From positions 1 to 64,000 of the forward strand of contig NZ_RFFJ01000006.1 of assembly GCF_003696235.1 (NCBI RefSeq): a DNA stretch of 64,000 bases. Direction: 5' to 3'. The notes beneath the pieces were generated by a model, which saw nothing but the letters and a program-made list of their open reading frames with translations, searched no databases and was not told the origin of the DNA. The translations under genes and the position numbers were made by a program. This document shows positions 12,234 through 54,293 of the stretch, piece after piece. Positions within the stretch are counted from its first letter, which is position 1. Each line of letters begins with the position of its first letter. The DNA comes from Streptomyces triticirhizae. Lineage in GTDB: Bacteria > Actinomycetota > Actinomycetes > Streptomycetales > Streptomycetaceae.

Positions 12234-12911
12234 TCAGCTCTTCTCGAAGCGGAATCCCACTCCCCGGACGGTGACGATGTAACGCGGGTTGGCCGCGTCG
12301 TCGCCGAGCTTCTTGCGCAGCCAGGAGATGTGCATGTCCAGCGTCTTGGTCGAGGACCACCAGGTCGTGTCCCAGACCTCCCGCATCAGCTGCTCCCTGG
12401 TGACCACCCGGCCCGCGTCCCGCACCAGGACCCGCAGCAGGTCGAACTCCTTGGCCGTCAGGTGCAGCTCGTCCTCGCCCATCCAGGCGCGGTGCGACTC
12501 CACGTCGATCCTGATGCCGTGCACGGCGGGGGCCGGGCCGCTCTCCGCGTTCCCCCGGCGCAGCAGGGCCCGCACCCGGGCCAGCAGTTCGGCCAGCCGG
12601 AAGGGCTTGGTGACATAGTCGTCGGCCCCGGCGTCCAGCCCCACCACGGTGTCCACCTCGTCGGCGCGGGCGGTCAGCACCAGCACCGGCAGGCCGAGCC
12701 CCTCGGTGCGCAGCCGGCGACAGACCTCCAGGCCGTCCATCCCGGGAAGTCCGAGGTCGAGCACCACCAGGTCGACGTCCCCGCGCAGTCCCGCCCGCAG
12801 CGCCTCGGGGCCGTCCTCGCGCACCTCCACCTCGTATCCCTCGCGGCGCAGGGCACGGGCCAGCGGCTCCGAGATGGATGCGTCGTCCTCGGCGAGCAGC
12901 ACACGGGTCAT
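12234..12911 (-). CDS. OmpR/PhoB-family response regulator
   Basis: 225 residues. The receiver domain has the acidic pocket (LAEDDASI), the phosphoacceptor Asp in VVLDLGLPGMDG (about residue 51) and Lys in YVTKPF. The C-terminal winged helix (VESHRAWMGEDELHLTAKEFDLLRVL to RGVGFRFE) is of the OmpR type. It is the first gene of the pair with the downstream kinase. Targets are not evident in the window. Confidence 0.95.
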   Translation of the reverse strand: MTRVLLAEDDASISEPLARALRREGYEVEVREDGPEALRAGLRGDVDLVVLDLGLPGMDGLEVCRRLRTEGLGLPVLVLTARADEVDTVVGLDAGADDYVTKPFRLAELLARVRALLRRGNAESGPAPAVHGIRIDVESHRAWMGEDELHLTAKEFDLLRVLVRDAGRVVTREQLMREVWDTTWWSSTKTLDMHISWLRKKLGDDAANPRYIVTVRGVGFRFEKS

Positions 12912-44596: not shown

Positions 44597-45559
44597 TCAG
44601 CGGGCCAGCACGCTCCACAGGAGGCCGTCCAGGATGTCGTGCTCGGAGACCGTGACCCGGGCGACGTCCGCCCGTTCCATGGCGCGCAGCAGCACCAGGG
44701 CGCCGGCGCCGATCACGTCGACCCGCCCCGGGTGCATCGACGGAACGGCCGCGCGCTCCGCGTGGGTCGCGCTCAGCAGCCAGTCGACGACCTCCCGCAC
44801 CTTCTCGCGCTCCAGCACCGCGTGGTGGATCGCGGCCGGGTCGTACTCGGGCAGCTCCAGGGCCATGGCCGCCACCGTGGTGACCGAGCCGGCCAGCCCC
44901 ACCAGCGTCCCGGCGCGCTCCAACGGAACGCGCTCGGCGGCCAGTTCGAGGGCCGCGTCGATGTCGGCGGTCAGCGCCGCCAGCGCCTCGGGCCCCGGCG
45001 GGTCGGCCACCGCGCCGTCGGCCGTCGTCAGATGCCGCTCGGTCAGCCGGACGCAGCCGATGTCCACGCTGCGGGCCGCCGTCACCCGCCGCTCGCCCAG
45101 CACGAACTCGGTGGAGCCGCCGCCGATGTCCATCACCAGGAACGGCCGCGCCACCTCGGGCCGGCCGGCCAGCTCCCTGGTGGCGCCGGTGAAGGAGAGC
45201 GCGGCCTCCTCGTCCCCGGTGATCACCTCGGGCACCACGCCCAGGATCTCCTTGACGCCCCGGACGAAGTCGTCGCGGTTCTCGGCGTCCCTGGAGGCCG
45301 AGGTGGCGACGAACCGCAGCCGGTCGGGGGTCACCCCGTGGGCGGCGATCGCCTCCGCGTAGTCCCGGCACGCCGCCAGGGTGCGGGCCAGCGCCTCCGG
45401 CGCCAACCGGCCGGTCCGGTCCACGCCCTGGCCCAACCGGACGATCTCCATCCGCCGCACGCGGTCGACCAGTTGACCGGTCTCCGGGTCGGCGTCGGCC
45501 ACCAGCAGCCGGATCGAGTTGGTGCCGCAGTCGATGGCGGCGGCGGTGGTCAGGCTCAT
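44597..45559 (-). CDS. ppx: Ppx/GppA exopolyphosphatase-type phosphatase
   Basis: 320 residues with an actin-like ASKHA fold in two lobes. Phosphate loops are AIDCGTNSIRLLVAD near the N-terminus and VMDIGGGSTEFVLGE near residue 140, and the C-terminal ATP-like motif is GLAGSVTTVA. It would hydrolyse polyphosphate or pppGpp. It lacks the extra C-terminal HD-like domain of E. coli Ppx, as usual for actinobacterial forms. Start overlaps the DUF501 stop (ATGA), so it is the distal gene of the eno-divIC-DUF501-ppx group. Confidence 0.92.
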   Translation of the reverse strand: MSLTTAAAIDCGTNSIRLLVADADPETGQLVDRVRRMEIVRLGQGVDRTGRLAPEALARTLAACRDYAEAIAAHGVTPDRLRFVATSASRDAENRDDFVRGVKEILGVVPEVITGDEEAALSFTGATRELAGRPEVARPFLVMDIGGGSTEFVLGERRVTAARSVDIGCVRLTERHLTTADGAVADPPGPEALAALTADIDAALELAAERVPLERAGTLVGLAGSVTTVAAMALELPEYDPAAIHHAVLEREKVREVVDWLLSATHAERAAVPSMHPGRVDVIGAGALVLLRAMERADVARVTVSEHDILDGLLWSVLAR

Positions 45560-46092
45560 GCGTTCTCTCCTCGCGCGGGGTGCGGGCCGGCGTTGGCCTC
45601 GGCGGTGGCACCGGTGGCGCAGCGGCCGGCGCGCCACCACTCGGGCAGCATGGCGAGGGCCTCGTCACCCAGCGGGTTGACGCCGGGCCCGGCGACCAGC
45701 GCGTGCGCGACCAGCACATGGAGGCACTTGACCCGCTCCGGCATCCCGCCGGCGCTGGGGAAGCCGGCCAGCACCTCGATCTCGTCCCGCCGGGCCAGGT
45801 AGTCCTCGTGGGCCGCCCGGTAGGCGGCGGCCAGCTCCGGGTCGGTGGCCAGCCGCTCGGTCATCTCCCGCATCACGCCGTTGGCCTCCAGGGTGCCGAT
45901 GGCGGAGGCGGCGCGCGGGCAGGTCAGGTAGTAGGTGGTGGGGAACGGGGTGCCGTCGGGCAGCCGGGGCGCCGTCTCCACCACGTCGGGGTTGCCGCAC
46001 GGGCAGCGGTGGGCGACCGCGCGCAGCCCGCGCGGGGGGCGGCCGAGCTGCTCCTCGATCACCGCAACGTCGGTCGGGGTCGGGGTTTCCAC
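45556..46092 (-). CDS. DUF501 family protein
   Basis: 178 residues of a conserved actinobacterial family of unknown function. Typical blocks are EEQLGRPPRGLRAVAHRCPC, FPTTYYLTCPRAASAIGTLE and GGMPERVKCLHVLVAHALV. Its Cys and His residues (HRCPCG, CLHVLVAH) could bind metal. It always sits between divIC and ppx in Streptomyces, by memory. GTG 46092 is chosen because GAGAAGAG precedes it; the upstream extension is not conserved in character. Confidence 0.9.
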   Translation of the reverse strand: METPTPTDVAVIEEQLGRPPRGLRAVAHRCPCGNPDVVETAPRLPDGTPFPTTYYLTCPRAASAIGTLEANGVMREMTERLATDPELAAAYRAAHEDYLARRDEIEVLAGFPSAGGMPERVKCLHVLVAHALVAGPGVNPLGDEALAMLPEWWRAGRCATGATAEANAGPHPARGENA

Positions 46093-46188
46093 GGGTGAAC
46101 TCTTCTCAGGGGGACAACTCACGGGACGACGCGACGAGCGGCGGCTCCCACGGAACAACGAGTGTCGCGGACGCGGCGACCGGGCCGC

Positions 46189-46704
46189 TCACCGGGGGCG
46201 GTCGGCCCGATCGACGCCGTCCCACAGGTTCTGGTGCCAGGGGCGGGGCGCCAACGTCCCCCGGGTGCGCAGCCGTTCGTCCGTGCCGGCGTTGGCGCCG
46301 GGGGCGCCGTCGGGGAGGACGTAGCCGATCTCGCCGGGCCGCACATAGCGCAGCCGCTCCCTGGCCTGACGTTCGACATAGGCGTCGTCCTGCCAGCGGG
46401 CCTTGGCGTCCCGCAGCTCCTCGACGCGGTCGGCGGCCTCCCTGGCCAGCCGCCGCTGCTCGGAGATCTCCGAGCGCTGCTGCACGTACTGGCGCAGCGG
46501 ATAGGCGAGGGCGACCACCAACGAGCAGACCACCAGCGCCAACAGCGCGGCCCTGCCGGTGAGCCGGCCGCGCCGCTGCTGGCCGCCGCCCCGGCGCGGC
46601 CGGGCGAGCCTGCGGCTCTGCGCCCGGTAGACCCGGGCGGCGGCCTGCTCGCCGAGCGCCCGCAACCGGGTGGCGGTGGAGAACCGGTCCCGCTGCGCGG
46701 CCAC
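46189..46704 (-). CDS. divIC: FtsB/DivIC-family septum formation protein
   Basis: 171 residues. A basic cytoplasmic head (RLARPRRGGGQQRRGR) precedes one membrane helix (AALLALVVCSLVVALAYPL, about residues 53-71) and an extracytoplasmic coiled coil (QQRSEISEQRRLAREAADRVEELRD). The DivIC signature ERQARERLRYVRPGEIGYVL follows. It works with FtsL and FtsQ at the division septum, mainly in sporulation septa in Streptomyces. It lies between eno and DUF501. Confidence 0.92.
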   Translation of the reverse strand: MAAQRDRFSTATRLRALGEQAAARVYRAQSRRLARPRRGGGQQRRGRLTGRAALLALVVCSLVVALAYPLRQYVQQRSEISEQRRLAREAADRVEELRDAKARWQDDAYVERQARERLRYVRPGEIGYVLPDGAPGANAGTDERLRTRGTLAPRPWHQNLWDGVDRADRPR

Positions 46705-46824
46705 ATCGCCTCCCTGTCACCCTCACGTGGACTGCCCACGACCCGTCCCCGCCACCGTACGGGACGGACGGCGGGGACCGGTCGGGGGACACGGGCGGGC
46801 GGCCGACGAGCGCCGGCCGGGGCG

Positions 46825-46850
46825 GTCCGCCCGGACGCCTCCGGGCGGAC
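46825..46850 (-). terminator. Hairpin after eno
   Basis: GTCCGCCCGGA and TCCGGGCGGAC pair over 11 bp around a 4-base loop, 14 bases after the eno stop. It may only partly separate eno from divIC transcription. Confidence 0.7.
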
Positions 46851-46863
46851 TGCCCGCGCGGGC

Positions 46864-48213
<1,350 letters not shown>

Positions 48214-48363
48214 TCATCCAAGGTGACTCCCTGAGCCTAACCGCCTCCCGGCCCGCCGCCGTCATCCAGCGCCCGTCACGCGCCGAGAGACCCGGCGAAA
48301 TGCCTGGTCAACCAGGGTTGCGAGACGGCGAAGCTTTTTGTTTAACCACTGAAGAAAACGGGG

Positions 48364-48391
48364 TGCCCGGCCGGTGAACACCGGCCGGGCA
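48364..48391 (-). terminator. Hairpin after rpfA
   Basis: TGCCCGGCCGGT pairs perfectly with ACCGGCCGGGCA over 12 bp around GAAC, 47 bases downstream of the rpfA stop. An A/T-rich patch (48328-48358) lies beyond it and probably belongs to the eno promoter region. Confidence 0.78.
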
Positions 48392-48438
48392 CGGGGCCGT
48401 TCACGGGAGGAGTCCGGAACGGCGAACGACCGCGTCGA

Positions 48439-49569
<1,131 letters not shown>

Positions 49570-49602
49570 GCGCGCCGAGCGGCCAAGAGCCGCCCGGCGC
49601 GC
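49570..49602 (-). terminator. Hairpin at the rpfC stop
   Basis: GCGCGCCGAGCGGC pairs with GCCGCCCGGCGCGC over 14 bases with one mismatch and a 5-base loop, ending 5 bases from the rpfC stop codon. Confidence 0.68.
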
Positions 49603-49607
49603 GCCGC

Positions 49608-50498
49608 TTAGCGACCGCTGGCGGTCAAGTCCAGCCGCTGGCCGGGGAGAATATAGTCGGGGTCGTCCCCAATGACCGATTCGTTCGCCCGGTAGAGGGC
49701 CGGCCAACCGCCCGAGATGTCATGGTCCAGGGCGATCTGCGAGAGGGTGTCGCCCGGAATCACCCGATATTCGCCGCCGTTGGCGCGCTCCCCCTCGTCC
49801 GCGCGCTCTCCGGCGCGGTCGCCGCGCGCCTGGTCGCGCTGGCGCTCGGCCTCGTCGGTCTCCGCCGGGTCGGGGTCGCCCCGGTGCCGGCCGTTGCCCT
49901 CCGACTCGGTGCGCTCGTCCGGCAGATCGCCGGCCCGCCCCTCGTCCGGCTGGTCCCCCGCCTCGGGGGTCTCCTCGACCGGCTCGGGCTCCGGCGTCGC
50001 GTCCCCCGGGCGTTCGTCGGAGCCGTCCGACGAGTCCTCGGGCGAGGCGCCGATCTCCTCCTCCGCCTGGGCCTCCTCGGCCTCCTCGGCGCGGTCGATC
50101 TCCTCGCGCTGCTCCTGCCGGTACTCCTGCCACACCCCGCTGGCCACCCCGCAGCCGGGCAGCGCGCCCCGGCCCATCCCGGCCATGATCCGCTCGGCCA
50201 CGGATATCTGCTGGGCGCGGCTGGCCAGATCGGGCCGGATCGCGAACTCCAACCCGCCGTACTCCTCCCAGAGTTCGATCGTCAACTGGAAGCCTCCGTA
50301 CTGACCGTTGCCGTCGTTGGCGCTCCACCGGCCGCCGGACTCGCACTCCGCCGCCCGGTCCCACGCCTCGTCGCCGACCGCCGAGGCCGAGCCCGCGCTC
50401 AGCAGCGGCATGGCGATGCCGGCGCCGGTGACGCCCGCTGCGACGATGAAGGCAGGAGCCTGCCGTGGGCGACGATGACGACCTGTCCCGGAGCGCAT
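49608..50498 (-). CDS. rpfC: RpfC-like transglycosylase with LysM
   Basis: 296 residues, secreted. [11 protein letters not shown] starts the n-region and the signal ends in SASA. The Rpf domain (DEAWDRAAECESGGRW, catalytic Glu in CESGG) includes GQYGGFQLTIELWEEYGG. A very acidic, repetitive linker (about residues 125-240, dominated by Glu, Asp, Arg, Gly, Pro) leads to a LysM domain (YRVIPGDTLSQIALDHDISG). It lies 509 bases upstream of rpfA on the same strand but lacks a c-di-AMP riboswitch. Its 5' region instead has four phased GATC repeats. Confidence 0.9.
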   Translation of the reverse strand: MRSGTGRHRRPRQAPAFIVAAGVTGAGIAMPLLSAGSASAVGDEAWDRAAECESGGRWSANDGNGQYGGFQLTIELWEEYGGLEFAIRPDLASRAQQISVAERIMAGMGRGALPGCGVASGVWQEYRQEQREEIDRAEEAEEAQAEEEIGASPEDSSDGSDERPGDATPEPEPVEETPEAGDQPDEGRAGDLPDERTESEGNGRHRGDPDPAETDEAERQRDQARGDRAGERADEGERANGGEYRVIPGDTLSQIALDHDISGGWPALYRANESVIGDDPDYILPGQRLDLTASGR

Positions 50499-50560
50499 CT
50501 GCGGACCCTCCCAAACGAACACTGTTGCGGTTGAGGGGAACCTAGCCGCCCCCACCGCAC

Positions 50561-50604
50561 GATCACAAGCCGATCCCACGCAGATCACGCGCGGATCACA
50601 CTAC
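50561..50604. repeat. Four 11-bp phased GATC(A/C)C direct repeats
   Basis: GATC begins at 50561, 50572, 50583 and 50594, exactly 11 bp apart; the units are GATCACAAGCC, GATCCCACGCA, GATCACGCGCG and GATCACACTAC. The array ends on the P450 stop codon and lies 63-106 bases before the rpfC start. The 11-bp phasing recalls the direct-repeat units of PhoP boxes, though the sequence is not the PhoP consensus. Confidence 0.7.
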
Positions 50605-51902
50605 TGACGCCCCGTCACGCGCGCCGGCGTGAACTCCACGGGCAGCGAACGCAGTCCACGCATGATCAGCCCACCGCGCCAGCGCGGCTCGGGCGCCCCG
50701 CTCGCCCGCCGCAGATCCGGCAGCCTTCGCAGCAGCACCGCGAGGGCCGTTCGGGCCTCGGCCCTGGCCAGGGGTGCGCCCAGACAGTAGTGGATGCCGT
50801 GGCCGTAGCCGAGATGGGGGTTGTCAACGCGGCTCAGATCCAGGGTGTTCGGCTCAGCGAAGCGCTCCGGGTCCCGGTCGGCCGCCGCGAGCACCACCAG
50901 CACCGGCTCGCCGGCCTCCACCAACTGTCCGCCCAGGGTGAGGCGTTCGGTGGCGAAGCGCCAGGTGGCCAGCTCCACGGGGCCGTCGAAGCGGAGCAGC
51001 TCCTCGACCGCCGTGGCGAGCAGCCGCTCGTCGCCGGCCGCCAGCCCGGCGCGCAGCAGGGCGAGTTGCTCGGGGTGGCCCAGCAGCGCGTGGACGCCGT
51101 TCCCGATGAGGTTGACGGTCGTCTCGAAGCCGGCGAAGAGCAGGATGAACGCCATCGCCGCCGCCTCGTCCTCGGTGAGCTGCTCGCCGTGATCGGAGGC
51201 GCGGATCAGCCCGGAGATCAGGTCGTCGCCCGGCGTCAGGCGCTTGCGGTGGATCAACTCCGCGAGATAGGCGCGCATCCGCTTCACCGCGCGCCCCACG
51301 CCGCCCCGCTTGCCGCTGGTGTGCAGCATCATCCCGGCCCAGGAGCGGAAGTCGTCCTGGTCCTCGGCCGGCACGCCCAGCAGGTCACAGATCGCGTAGA
51401 TGGGCAACGGGAACGCGAACTCGTCGATCAGGTCGGCCGATCCACGCTCCGCGAAGCCGTCAACGAGTCGCTCGGTCAACTCCCGCACCCGGGGCTCGAA
51501 CGCGGCGACCCGGCGCGGGGTGAACGCCTGCGAGACCAGCCGGCGCAGCCGGGTGTGGTCGGGCGGGTCGATGTTGAGGAGGTGCGTCATCAGCCCGGCG
51601 CCGCGCTCGCCGGGGATGCCGACCCGGCCGGAGGCGTGCCGGTCGGCGCTGTGCCGGGAGGGGTTCTTGCTGAGCCTGGGGTCGGCCAGGGCCGCGCGGG
51701 CGTCCCGGTAGCGGGTCACCAGCCACGCCTCGACGCCGCTGGGCAGCGTCGCCCGGTGCACCGGCGCGTGCTCGCGCAGCCAGGCGTAGGCGGGGTAGGG
51801 GTCGGCCAGGAAGCCTGGGCCGAACAGCGCGGGGCGCGCGCCCGCGTGCGCGCCATCCCGCACGCCGGCTCGTTCCCGCTCCCCGGCGGCGCACTCAGCC
51901 AC
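50601..51902 (-). CDS. Cytochrome P450
   Basis: 433-residue bacterial class I P450 (CYP107-like by appearance). The I-helix oxygen-binding motif is FAGFETTVN, the K-helix ExxR is in EELLRF, and the heme loop is LGYGHGIHYCLGAPLAR with the axial Cys near residue 375. It needs ferredoxin partners encoded elsewhere. It starts at GTG overlapping the 3' end of the sensor kinase gene by 8 bases, so the two are translationally coupled. The substrate is unknown. Confidence 0.93.
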   Translation of the reverse strand: MAECAAGERERAGVRDGAHAGARPALFGPGFLADPYPAYAWLREHAPVHRATLPSGVEAWLVTRYRDARAALADPRLSKNPSRHSADRHASGRVGIPGERGAGLMTHLLNIDPPDHTRLRRLVSQAFTPRRVAAFEPRVRELTERLVDGFAERGSADLIDEFAFPLPIYAICDLLGVPAEDQDDFRSWAGMMLHTSGKRGGVGRAVKRMRAYLAELIHRKRLTPGDDLISGLIRASDHGEQLTEDEAAAMAFILLFAGFETTVNLIGNGVHALLGHPEQLALLRAGLAAGDERLLATAVEELLRFDGPVELATWRFATERLTLGGQLVEAGEPVLVVLAAADRDPERFAEPNTLDLSRVDNPHLGYGHGIHYCLGAPLARAEARTALAVLLRRLPDLRRASGAPEPRWRGGLIMRGLRSLPVEFTPARVTGRQ

Positions 51903-53262
51903 CCGTGTGCTCCCCCGGCCGGTCCGGGATCACCGCCGAGACGCGGAAGCCGCCCTCCTCGGTCGGGCCCGAGACAAAGCCGCCGCCCAGCGCCGTCACC
52001 CGCTCCCGCATCCCGACCAGGCCGTTGCCCCCGCTGGGCAGCCTGGCCTCGTCGGGGCGGCGGGCGGCGCCGTCGGGCGCCTCGTTGCGCACCTGCACGG
52101 CGACCTCGCCGTCCCGGTGCGCCAGCCGCACCCAGGCGGCCGCGCCGGCCGCGTGCTTGTGCACATTGGTCAGCGCCTCCTGGACCACCCGGTAGGCCGT
52201 GGACTCCACCTGCTCGGGATAGTCGCGGTGCTCGCCCTCGACGGCCAGCTCCACCCGCATCCCCGCCGCCCGCGACTCCTCGACCAGCGCCCGCAGCCCG
52301 GTGAGCCGGGGCCCATCGCCGTTGCCGGCCGGCGCCGGCCGGCCGCCCTCGGGCGCCCGGTCCGCCGCCGGCTCGCCCTGGCCGGCGCCCGAGGCGATCT
52401 CGGCCAGCCGGGACGAGGCCCGGGAGGCGTCCGAAGCGCCGGCCGGGGCGGCGCGCAGCACGCCCAGCATGGTGCGCAGCTCGGTCAGCGCCTGGCGGCC
52501 CATGTCGCCGATCAACGAGGCGTTCCGCGCGGCCTTCTCCGGGTCCTTGGGCGCCACCGCCTGCACGGCGGCGGCGTGCACCACCATCAGGCTCACCCGG
52601 TGTGCCACCACGTCGTGCATCTCCCGGGCGATGCGCCGCCGTTCCTCGTCGCGCGCCCACTCGGCGCGCTCCTCGGCGCGCTCGGCCAGCAGCCCCAACT
52701 CGCGTTCCAGGCCGAGCGCCCGGTCGCGCAGGGTCTCCACCAGCCGTCTCCTGGCTCGGACATACATCCCCAGCAGCACCGGCGGCACCACGGAGGCCAC
52801 GCCGAAGAGCAGCGCCACCAGGGGCCGGAACCAGACCGGGACGGCCTGCTCCCTGATCGCCGGGTCGTTGTCCAGCAGCAGATAGGTGACGATGACCGTG
52901 CCCAGGCCCTCCATGCAGGCCAGCGCGGCGATCACCCGGCGGGGCGCGTCCGTGGTGGCGAGCGTGTAGAGGCCGACGAGCGCCAGCACGGCGCCCATGT
53001 TGGCCGGCAGCACGGCGATCGAGATGAGGATCACGGCCAGCGGCCAGCGCCGCCGCACCAGCAGCGCCAGCCCGGCCAGCGCACCCGGCACCACGACCAG
53101 CCCGACCGGGAGTCCGGTCCGGTCGGCGAAGCCCACCCCCTGGACCGCGCACTCGGTGGCCGAGACCACCGCGAGCCCCGCGTCCAGCGCCACGCTGCGC
53201 CGCCGCGTCCACCACAGCAGGCGGAAGTCACCTCCGGCCGTGGGCGCCCCCTTCGCATCCAT
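51895..53262 (-). CDS. NarL-type sensor histidine kinase (orphan)
   Basis: 455 residues. Five to six hydrophobic segments occupy residues 20-175 (starting SVALDAGLAVVSATE) with almost no extracellular loop, so it probably senses a membrane signal. HisKA_3 carries the phosphoacceptor in EERRRIAREMHDVVAHRVSL. HATPase motifs are EALTNVHKHAAG and GNGLVGMRERV. No LuxR-type response regulator is adjacent; the coupled downstream gene encodes a P450. The linker between helices and ATPase (about residues 275-315) is long and Ala/Gly-rich. Confidence 0.9.
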   Translation of the reverse strand: MDAKGAPTAGGDFRLLWWTRRRSVALDAGLAVVSATECAVQGVGFADRTGLPVGLVVVPGALAGLALLVRRRWPLAVILISIAVLPANMGAVLALVGLYTLATTDAPRRVIAALACMEGLGTVIVTYLLLDNDPAIREQAVPVWFRPLVALLFGVASVVPPVLLGMYVRARRRLVETLRDRALGLERELGLLAERAEERAEWARDEERRRIAREMHDVVAHRVSLMVVHAAAVQAVAPKDPEKAARNASLIGDMGRQALTELRTMLGVLRAAPAGASDASRASSRLAEIASGAGQGEPAADRAPEGGRPAPAGNGDGPRLTGLRALVEESRAAGMRVELAVEGEHRDYPEQVESTAYRVVQEALTNVHKHAAGAAAWVRLAHRDGEVAVQVRNEAPDGAARRPDEARLPSGGNGLVGMRERVTALGGGFVSGPTEEGGFRVSAVIPDRPGEHTGG

Positions 53263-53352
53263 GACGACCAGCCTACGGGCGCGGGCGGCGCGGTTTTCCG
53301 TCGGGCGGAAACCCGGCCAGCGACAGGGCGGTGTGAACGTTCACCCTCGCGT

Positions 53353-53730
53353 TCACGCCCACCACAGCAGCCCCAGGGCGTGGCCGGCGTACGCGGCGCC
53401 GAGTCCGCCGCCGACCGAGGCCAGCACATTGCCGAAAGCCGCCGGCCAGCGGCCGGTCTCGGCCAGCCGCAGGGTCTCGTGGGAGAACGTCGAGTAGGTG
53501 GTCAACGCGCCGCAGAACCCGGTGCCCAGCAGCAGCCCGAGCCCCTCCCCGGCCGCGCCGGCGAGCGTCGCGCCGGTGAGGACGCCGAGCACCAGCGAGC
53601 CGGCGAGGTTGACCAGCAGGGTGCCCCAGGGGAACGGTCCTTCGTGCCACCGCCGCAGCCCCCGGTCCACGGCGTAGCGCAGCGGCGCCCCCACCGCGCC
53701 GCCCAGCGCCACCAGCAGCCAGCCGCTCAC
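53353..53730 (-). CDS. crcB: CrcB/Fluc fluoride channel subunit
   Basis: 125 residues with four membrane helices. Typical motifs are GGAVGAPLRYAVD, FPWGTLLVNLAGS and GTGFCGALTTYSTFSHET, which hold the Asn and Phe residues lining the fluoride pores. It expels fluoride as a dual-topology dimer. GTG start overlapping the upstream crcB stop (GTGA). The pair may form a heterodimer. Confidence 0.93.
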   Translation of the reverse strand: MSGWLLVALGGAVGAPLRYAVDRGLRRWHEGPFPWGTLLVNLAGSLVLGVLTGATLAGAAGEGLGLLLGTGFCGALTTYSTFSHETLRLAETGRWPAAFGNVLASVGGGLGAAYAGHALGLLWWA

Positions 53731-54293
53731 CGCGCGCCCCCGCCCCCGCCGCCGGCGCGCGCTCCCCAGCGCGCGAGGAGGGGGCGCACCAGCCGGCGGG
53801 CGCCCCAGGCGCCCAGGGTGACGGCGAGCAGCGCGAGGACCAGCGTCCCGCCCAGCGCGCCGAGTCCGGCCGCCACCCGCCCGTCGCGCAGCAGCGTCTC
53901 GACGTCGACGGCGTGGGTGGACAGGGTCGTGAAGCCGCCCAGCACCCCGGTGGCGAGGAACGGCCGCAGCAGCGGGTGGGGCGCCGGGACCTCGGTGAGG
54001 ACGACCAGCAGGCAGCCGATCAGCAGGCAGCCCAGCACGTTGACGACGAGCGTGGTCCAGGGGAACGCGCCGGGCGGCGTCGGCCAGCGCAGCGCGGCGC
54101 CGTAGCGGGCCAGCGCGCCCAGCGAGCCGCCCACGGCGACGACCGCGAGCACGGTCGGCGGCGGAACGGGCGGCGGCGCCGGCAGGTCCGGGTCGATCGG
54201 CTCGGGCCCGACGGCCCGGCGAGGACGCTCGTCCCTCCCGGCCAACGGTTCAGCGTCCAACGGGCCCTCGGCGAACGGTCCTTCGGCGGTCAC
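53727..54293 (-). CDS. crcB: CrcB/Fluc fluoride channel subunit with N-terminal extension
   Basis: 188 residues. About 55 hydrophilic residues (Pro, Asp, Glu, Arg) precede the four-helix CrcB core (VGGSLGALARYGAALRW, FPWTTLVVNVLGCLL, GVLGGFTTLSTHAVDVETLL). It is translationally coupled to the second crcB. GTG 54293 was chosen as the first sensible start after low-complexity sequence; the true start might be nearer the core (about codon 50). I do not see a fluoride riboswitch in front. Confidence 0.88.
   Translation of the reverse strand: MTAEGPFAEGPLDAEPLAGRDERPRRAVGPEPIDPDLPAPPPVPPPTVLAVVAVGGSLGALARYGAALRWPTPPGAFPWTTLVVNVLGCLLIGCLLVVLTEVPAPHPLLRPFLATGVLGGFTTLSTHAVDVETLLRDGRVAAGLGALGGTLVLALLAVTLGAWGARRLVRPLLARWGARAGGGGGGAR

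Follow-up and report, generated by a model that had tools for sequence, protein, structure and literature searches.

An 11-bp phased direct repeat conserved in the rpfC promoter of Streptomyces, with MtrA as its candidate regulator

The DNA analyzed here, which we call the window, is a stretch of 64,000 nucleotides from Streptomyces triticirhizae (contig NZ_RFFJ01000006.1). Four phased copies of GATC lie in it between rpfC and the stop codon (50601-50603, minus strand) that ends a P450 gene (Table 1). These start at 50561, 50572, 50583, and 50594, and the next two bases are AC, CC, AC, and AC, exactly as had been predicted from the sequence. There are 332 GATC sites in the window, and for periods of 6 to 20 no other four of them fall in phase. 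Such a run, at any of these periods, was absent from all 300 dinucleotide-shuffled versions of the window. A looser search, for three units with up to 3 mismatches, found 6 arrays with 3.82 expected, and 18 of 100 shuffles gave 6 or more, a result that is not above chance. Since the array ends at 50599, outside the P450 stop codon, it is intergenic, and the repeat is indeed not explained by coding. On the minus strand, which is that of rpfC, the array reads GTGATC-N5-GTGATC-N5-GGGATC-N5-GTGATC, and its units 1 and 2 are the sole GTGAYC-N5-GTGAYC of the window.

Table 1. Features of the rpfC upstream region (window positions).
Feature	Position	Strand	Remarks
rpfC	49608..50498	-	transglycosylase-like domain (PF06737) and LysM; start codon aligned with relatives
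Inferred -10, TAGGTT	50539..50544	-	18-bp spacer from TTGTGA
Inferred -35, TTGTGA	50563..50568	-	core-promoter match in relatives
Unit 4, GTGATC	50561..50566	-	overlaps the inferred -35 element
Unit 3, GGGATC	50572..50577	-	degenerate half-site in relatives, from the hexamer list
Unit 2, GTGATC	50583..50588	-	11 bp beyond unit 1
Unit 1, GTGATC	50594..50599	-	about -67 from the inferred transcription start
Inverted repeat, TGACGCCCCGTCA	50605..50617		adjoins the array upstream, in the last P450 codons

The -35 and -10 elements were assigned because TTGTGA-N18-TANNTT is kept without mismatch in 30 of 36 promoters of the genus. TTGTGA agrees with TTGACA at 4 of 6 positions and TAGGTT with TATAAT at 3 of 6, and we infer from these sequences that the rpfC core promoter is weak. 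A sigma-70 scan found no promoter-like site, the inferred -10 falling below the scan's own rule. Relative to the inferred transcription start, the four units would lie at about -67, -56, -45, and -34. In S. coelicolor numbering, rpfC is SCO3098 and rpfE is SCO7458 (PMC6414726, in excerpt). The list of the sigma-E regulon includes SCO3098 (PMC6767563, in excerpt). Bacitracin and moenomycin induced the gene, and vancomycin repressed it (PMC3123327, in excerpt). A c-di-AMP riboswitch (RF00379, 42.9 bits), at 49102-49248 on the minus strand, precedes the rpfA-like gene next to rpfC, which suggests that the controls of these two adjacent rpf genes differ.

The genes for rpfC-like proteins were sought in the host's own genome and in 60 relatives, 36 of which are of the same genus. 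The 36 promoters of the genus, this one included, were anchored on the core promoter only, and units 1 and 2 were not used. In 32 of the 36 promoters, units 1 and 2 lie 31 bp ahead of the -35 and have no more than one mismatch (20 perfect and 12 with one mismatch), while 0.37% of all positions in the same upstream regions match equally well, the sites themselves counted. Three of the other four promoters (L012, L019, and L023) were mis-anchored yet have the pair, which was identified there by eye, and one (L015) is without it. In the 31 aligned rows, the A at the fourth place of the unit is conserved at exact 11-bp steps, with 2.6, 2.6, 2.3, and 2.6 bits for units 1 to 4, and the conserved stretch reaches from about 22 bp before unit 1 to just past the -10. 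A scan of named genomes with GTGATCTTCACGTGATCT gave at least 119 stretches; among the 80 matches listed, 78 come from Streptomyces, an rpfC-like start follows in 73, and the -35 and -10 are in register in 74.

The relatives also show what the repeated unit is. Units 1 and 2 are mostly GTGAYC, with GTGACT as unit 1 in 8 of 36 promoters, and unit 4 is mostly GTGAC or GTGAT. Unit 3 is TGCATC in 12 of the 36, GGCATT in 8, and GGCATG in 5. GGGATC, and thus GATC, is present at unit 3 in this strain only (1/36 promoters), which rules out GATC as the core motif. The original prediction was therefore right about the phased array, but its repeat unit was misread in both register and strand, the true unit being GTGAYC on the minus strand. 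Conservation in related strains, which had been proposed as a check, is found for units 1, 2, and 4, but not for the GATC of unit 3. OmpR-family regulators typically use direct repeats of 11 bp that cross a -35. The conservation in the genus and the place over the inferred -35 support the proposal of an 11-bp OmpR-family operator upstream of rpfC, and we conclude that the rpfC promoter contains an OmpR-type operator that is conserved in the genus.

Which OmpR-type regulator binds the array? It consists of 6-bp direct repeats with a 5-bp spacer, and two such repeats at an 11-bp step are one mark of an MtrA operator. The MtrA operators of whiI, whiB, bldD, and ectA likewise have direct half-sites at about 11-bp steps, but the half-site there is GTRACC, whereas it is GTGAYC in the rpfC array. 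At whiI, MtrA protects -68 to -29, with sites at -69 to -53 and -43 to -27 (PMC5650626). The rpfC units span about -67 to -29, nearly the range of the whiI footprint, so that both operators have tandem sites over this region and the -35; the two whiI sites, however, start 26 bp apart, while the rpfC array has four units in unbroken 11-bp phase. The published MtrA consensuses are KTRACC-N5-GTKACN (PMC5650626) and GTAACC-N5-GTAACC (PMC12323332, in excerpt), and a quite different 14-bp motif is given for S. avermitilis MtrA (PMC11000389). Units 1 and 2 have two mismatches to the MtrA consensus because they have T where the consensus has C. Two mismatches to KTRACC-N5-GTKACN are also found at 43 other places in the window, and no place has fewer.

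A matrix was made from the 14 half-sites of S. venezuelae defined by SPR (PMC13189361). With this matrix, the array ranks first of 127,922 four-unit 11-bp arrangements in the window, and the first pair ranks 14th of 127,966; taken singly, unit 4 is among the best 0.07% of 7-mers. At other periods, the same matrix finds a better four-unit set at 9 (20.68, compared with 18.40 for the array) and a nearly equal one at 13 (18.39). The inner two units of one relative have low scores, 1.24 and 0.28. All four plus-strand units (TCACAAG, TCCCACG, TCACGCG, and TCACACT) have the T1 and C4 of the 7-bp half-site defined by SPR, a rule that carries little information. The array is also first when four GTGACC units are used for scoring, GTGACC being a version of the MtrA half-site chosen here. 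With four units of GTAACC, one place is better than the array and seven more are as good or equal, and with a matrix from 17 ectA sites the pair of units 1 and 2 is 62nd of 127,966. Since the motif tests point in both directions, regulon overlap and architecture carry more of the case for MtrA than the letters do.

The boxes of GlnR and AfsQ1, GTnAC-n6-GnnAC and the like, share the 11-bp steps of the array, but the C of GTnAC is T in units 1 and 2 of this window. We rejected the GlnR box, GTnAC-n6-GnnAC, since units 1 and 2 read GTGAT. The four-unit GlnR-box score of the array is tied with or below that of 27 other places. MtrA has been reported to bind GlnR sites (PMC12323332 and PMC6988585, both in excerpt).

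We searched 16 genomes of the genus for GTGAYC-N5-GTGAYC and fetched 80 sites, at which the genes were called with a crude GC-position script. The pair is upstream of whiB in 8 loci, including that of the host's own genome, 290-320 bp before the start; these loci were chosen because the pair is present. It is also upstream of a polyprenyl synthetase gene in 6 loci, an MscS-type channel gene in 5, and an NlpC/P60 hydrolase gene in 5, in the last case with the motif on the other strand, and of a second NlpC/P60 gene in 2 loci. The proteins of the whiB, polyprenyl synthetase, NlpC/P60, and MscS groups match the group representative at every named locus. A permease (2 loci) and a sugar ABC transporter (2 loci), named by reading of the sequence only, have the pair as well, and several further recurrent pairs are within genes. 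For genomes G007, G009, G013, and G026, all listed sites fall in 64 regions, of which 39 are intergenic as a raw share; overall, 51 of 80 are.

In four genomes, there are 67 GTGAYC pairs at the 5-bp spacer, compared with 44 at 4 bp and 99 at 7 and 8 bp together, so the 5-bp spacer is in only slight excess across the genomes. When the second unit is limited to GTGATC, G013 has at least 9 pairs at 5 bp and at least 11 at 4 bp. Four exact 5-bp spacers recur in at least three of the four genomes, those of rpfC, whiB, polyprenyl synthetase, and one mostly intragenic site. Only one exact 4-bp spacer does so, and it is intragenic in the two loci inspected (L177 and L178). By eye, two exact 7-bp spacers recur, and no 8-bp spacer does. 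The control with the reversed pattern is unfair because reversal gives CTAG, which is scarce in such genomes.

The list of genes with recurrent pairs resembles the MtrA regulon. whiB is a ChIP-seq target of MtrA in S. coelicolor and S. venezuelae (PMC5845573, in excerpt) and is bound by MtrA in S. avermitilis by EMSA (PMC11000389), but its transcription is unchanged in the S. coelicolor mtrA mutant (PMC5650626, in excerpt). A probe upstream of sco7458 is shifted by MtrA (PMC5650626). The targets of M. tuberculosis MtrA include rpfA, rpfB, rpfC, and ripA (PMC6265350, in excerpt). We found no published report of the array, or of MtrA at rpfC/SCO3098, in the text passages searched, but the published ChIP-seq tables may list it. 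The host genome has one mtrA gene over the NCBIfam cut-off (392.7 bits), and it is outside 12234-12911. Each of 16 relatives likewise has a single such gene (search at E ≤ 1e-90), with 95-96% identity to that of the host. In the host's own genome, PF10647, on the LpqB side, gave no more than a weak match, so mtrA was located by its own family. No clear GTGAYC array was seen in the mtrA upstream regions.

We suggest, with a probability of about 0.6, that the array is a two-dimer MtrA operator in the rpfC promoter. In this mechanism, a first MtrA dimer would bind units 1 and 2, upstream of the -35, and a second dimer would bind units 3 and 4, across the -35. Phosphorylated MtrA would then recruit RNA polymerase and turn on rpfC, which encodes a cell-wall lytic enzyme, and the switch would tie wall remodelling to the envelope and osmotic signal of MtrAB. 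Both MtrA as the regulator and the sign of its action, which is probably activating, are what we infer. The WhiI protein in the S. venezuelae mtrA mutant is 0.15 of wild type on R2YE and 2.6 on MYM (PMC13189361). Since WhiI falls on one medium and rises on the other, the sign of MtrA action at whiI is condition-dependent.

It is possible, though rather unlikely, that another OmpR-family regulator of Streptomyces, neither MtrA nor PhoP, recognizes the GTGAYC half-site and controls an envelope gene set. OmpR-type regulators with 11-bp repeats are numerous, and the fifth place of the conserved half-site is mostly T, unlike the published MtrA consensus. However, the recurrent sites overlap the published targets of MtrA in kind or in fact, with whiB, rpf, and hydrolases of the NlpC/P60 type among them. 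In a tentative wider form, the GTGAYC array may mark a distinct envelope regulon, consisting of rpfC, whiB, the NlpC/P60 hydrolases, the MscS-type channel, and polyprenyl synthetase, which would be under a non-MtrA regulator or under MtrA through an undescribed second class of half-site.

The binding of PhoP to the plus strand of the array as a divergent PHO box is improbable, although PhoP and MtrA cannot be told apart by motif resemblance alone. The PHO box of Streptomyces also has direct repeat units of 11 nt (PMC6988585, in excerpt). Its conserved sequence is GTTCACC, while the array has GATCAC, a difference that the original prediction had already pointed out. The units match GTTCACC at 5, 4, 5, and 5 of 7 positions (19/28), so we rejected a GTTCACC core. 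Nevertheless, GATCAC(A/G) agrees with it at 5 of 7 in three units, and the four plus-strand units are among the three best of 127,922 places in the window, with one place better and one equal besides the array. Against PhoP, relatives with units 1 and 2 have A or G instead of T as the second plus-strand base of these units. Furthermore, there is no phosphate gene among the inspected genes at recurrent GTGAYC pairs, for which a minority of the 80 fetched loci was annotated individually.

The conserved block directly follows the P450 stop codon, so one might consider that it acts as RNA, as a leader, attenuator, or terminator of the P450 transcript. This is very improbable, since the fold is no better than that of shuffles (z 0.39), there is no terminator-like site, and the sole Rfam match in 45000-54000 is elsewhere. 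In addition, the array precedes the inferred -35, and the sequence more than about 22 bp before the array is not conserved. The regulator at 12234-12911, which had been proposed to bind the array, is of the OmpR type and in the same window, but its best NCBIfam match, to MtrA, is 215.4 bits with a cut-off of 300. It is 38 kb from the array, nothing was found that links them, and no array was seen by eye upstream of its gene, so we consider its role scarcely credible. Chance, for which only the GATC of unit 3 in a single promoter of 36 speaks, is negligible given the shuffles and the conservation through the genus.

If the regulator is MtrA, a Streptomyces gene for a resuscitation-promoting factor would be controlled by the same response regulator as the mycobacterial rpf promoters, and this wiring of dormancy exit and wall remodelling would be conserved. 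The Streptomyces half-site would be extended to GTGAYC, and the NlpC/P60 hydrolases, the MscS-type channel, and polyprenyl synthetase would be further candidate targets. Since the array is conserved across many Streptomyces species and is most likely a site for the known MtrA, it would be a real yet fairly ordinary regulatory switch.

The gene ectA is a published MtrA target. We fetched 29 ectA loci over the family cut-off, and a regular expression found the site in 17 of 25 upstream regions, 12 of the 17 being GTTAC-N6-GTGAC. In these upstream regions (L141-L165), the conserved sequence is GTTAC-N6-GTGAC, not GTGAYC, and CCACA is often next to it. The inverted repeat that adjoins the rpfC array has the conserved form TGAC-N6-TCA, at about -18 to -6 of unit 1. 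Compared with the BldD consensus, it agrees with the strict form in 0 of 73 cases and with a loose form in 66 of 73.

At the polyprenyl synthetase loci (L073, L093, L102, L131, L134, and L139), a near-invariant GTGATCGAAASGTGACCGGATACGCTG block is found 99-144 bp before the gene, and the pair is directly ahead of a possible TACGCT -10. At the NlpC/P60 loci, the pair, viewed by eye on the strand of the gene, is between TTGAAC and a second hexamer 18 bp apart. This placement would suit repression. The second hexamer is TAGGGT-like in L082, L118, and L119, and TAAGGT in L063 and L098.
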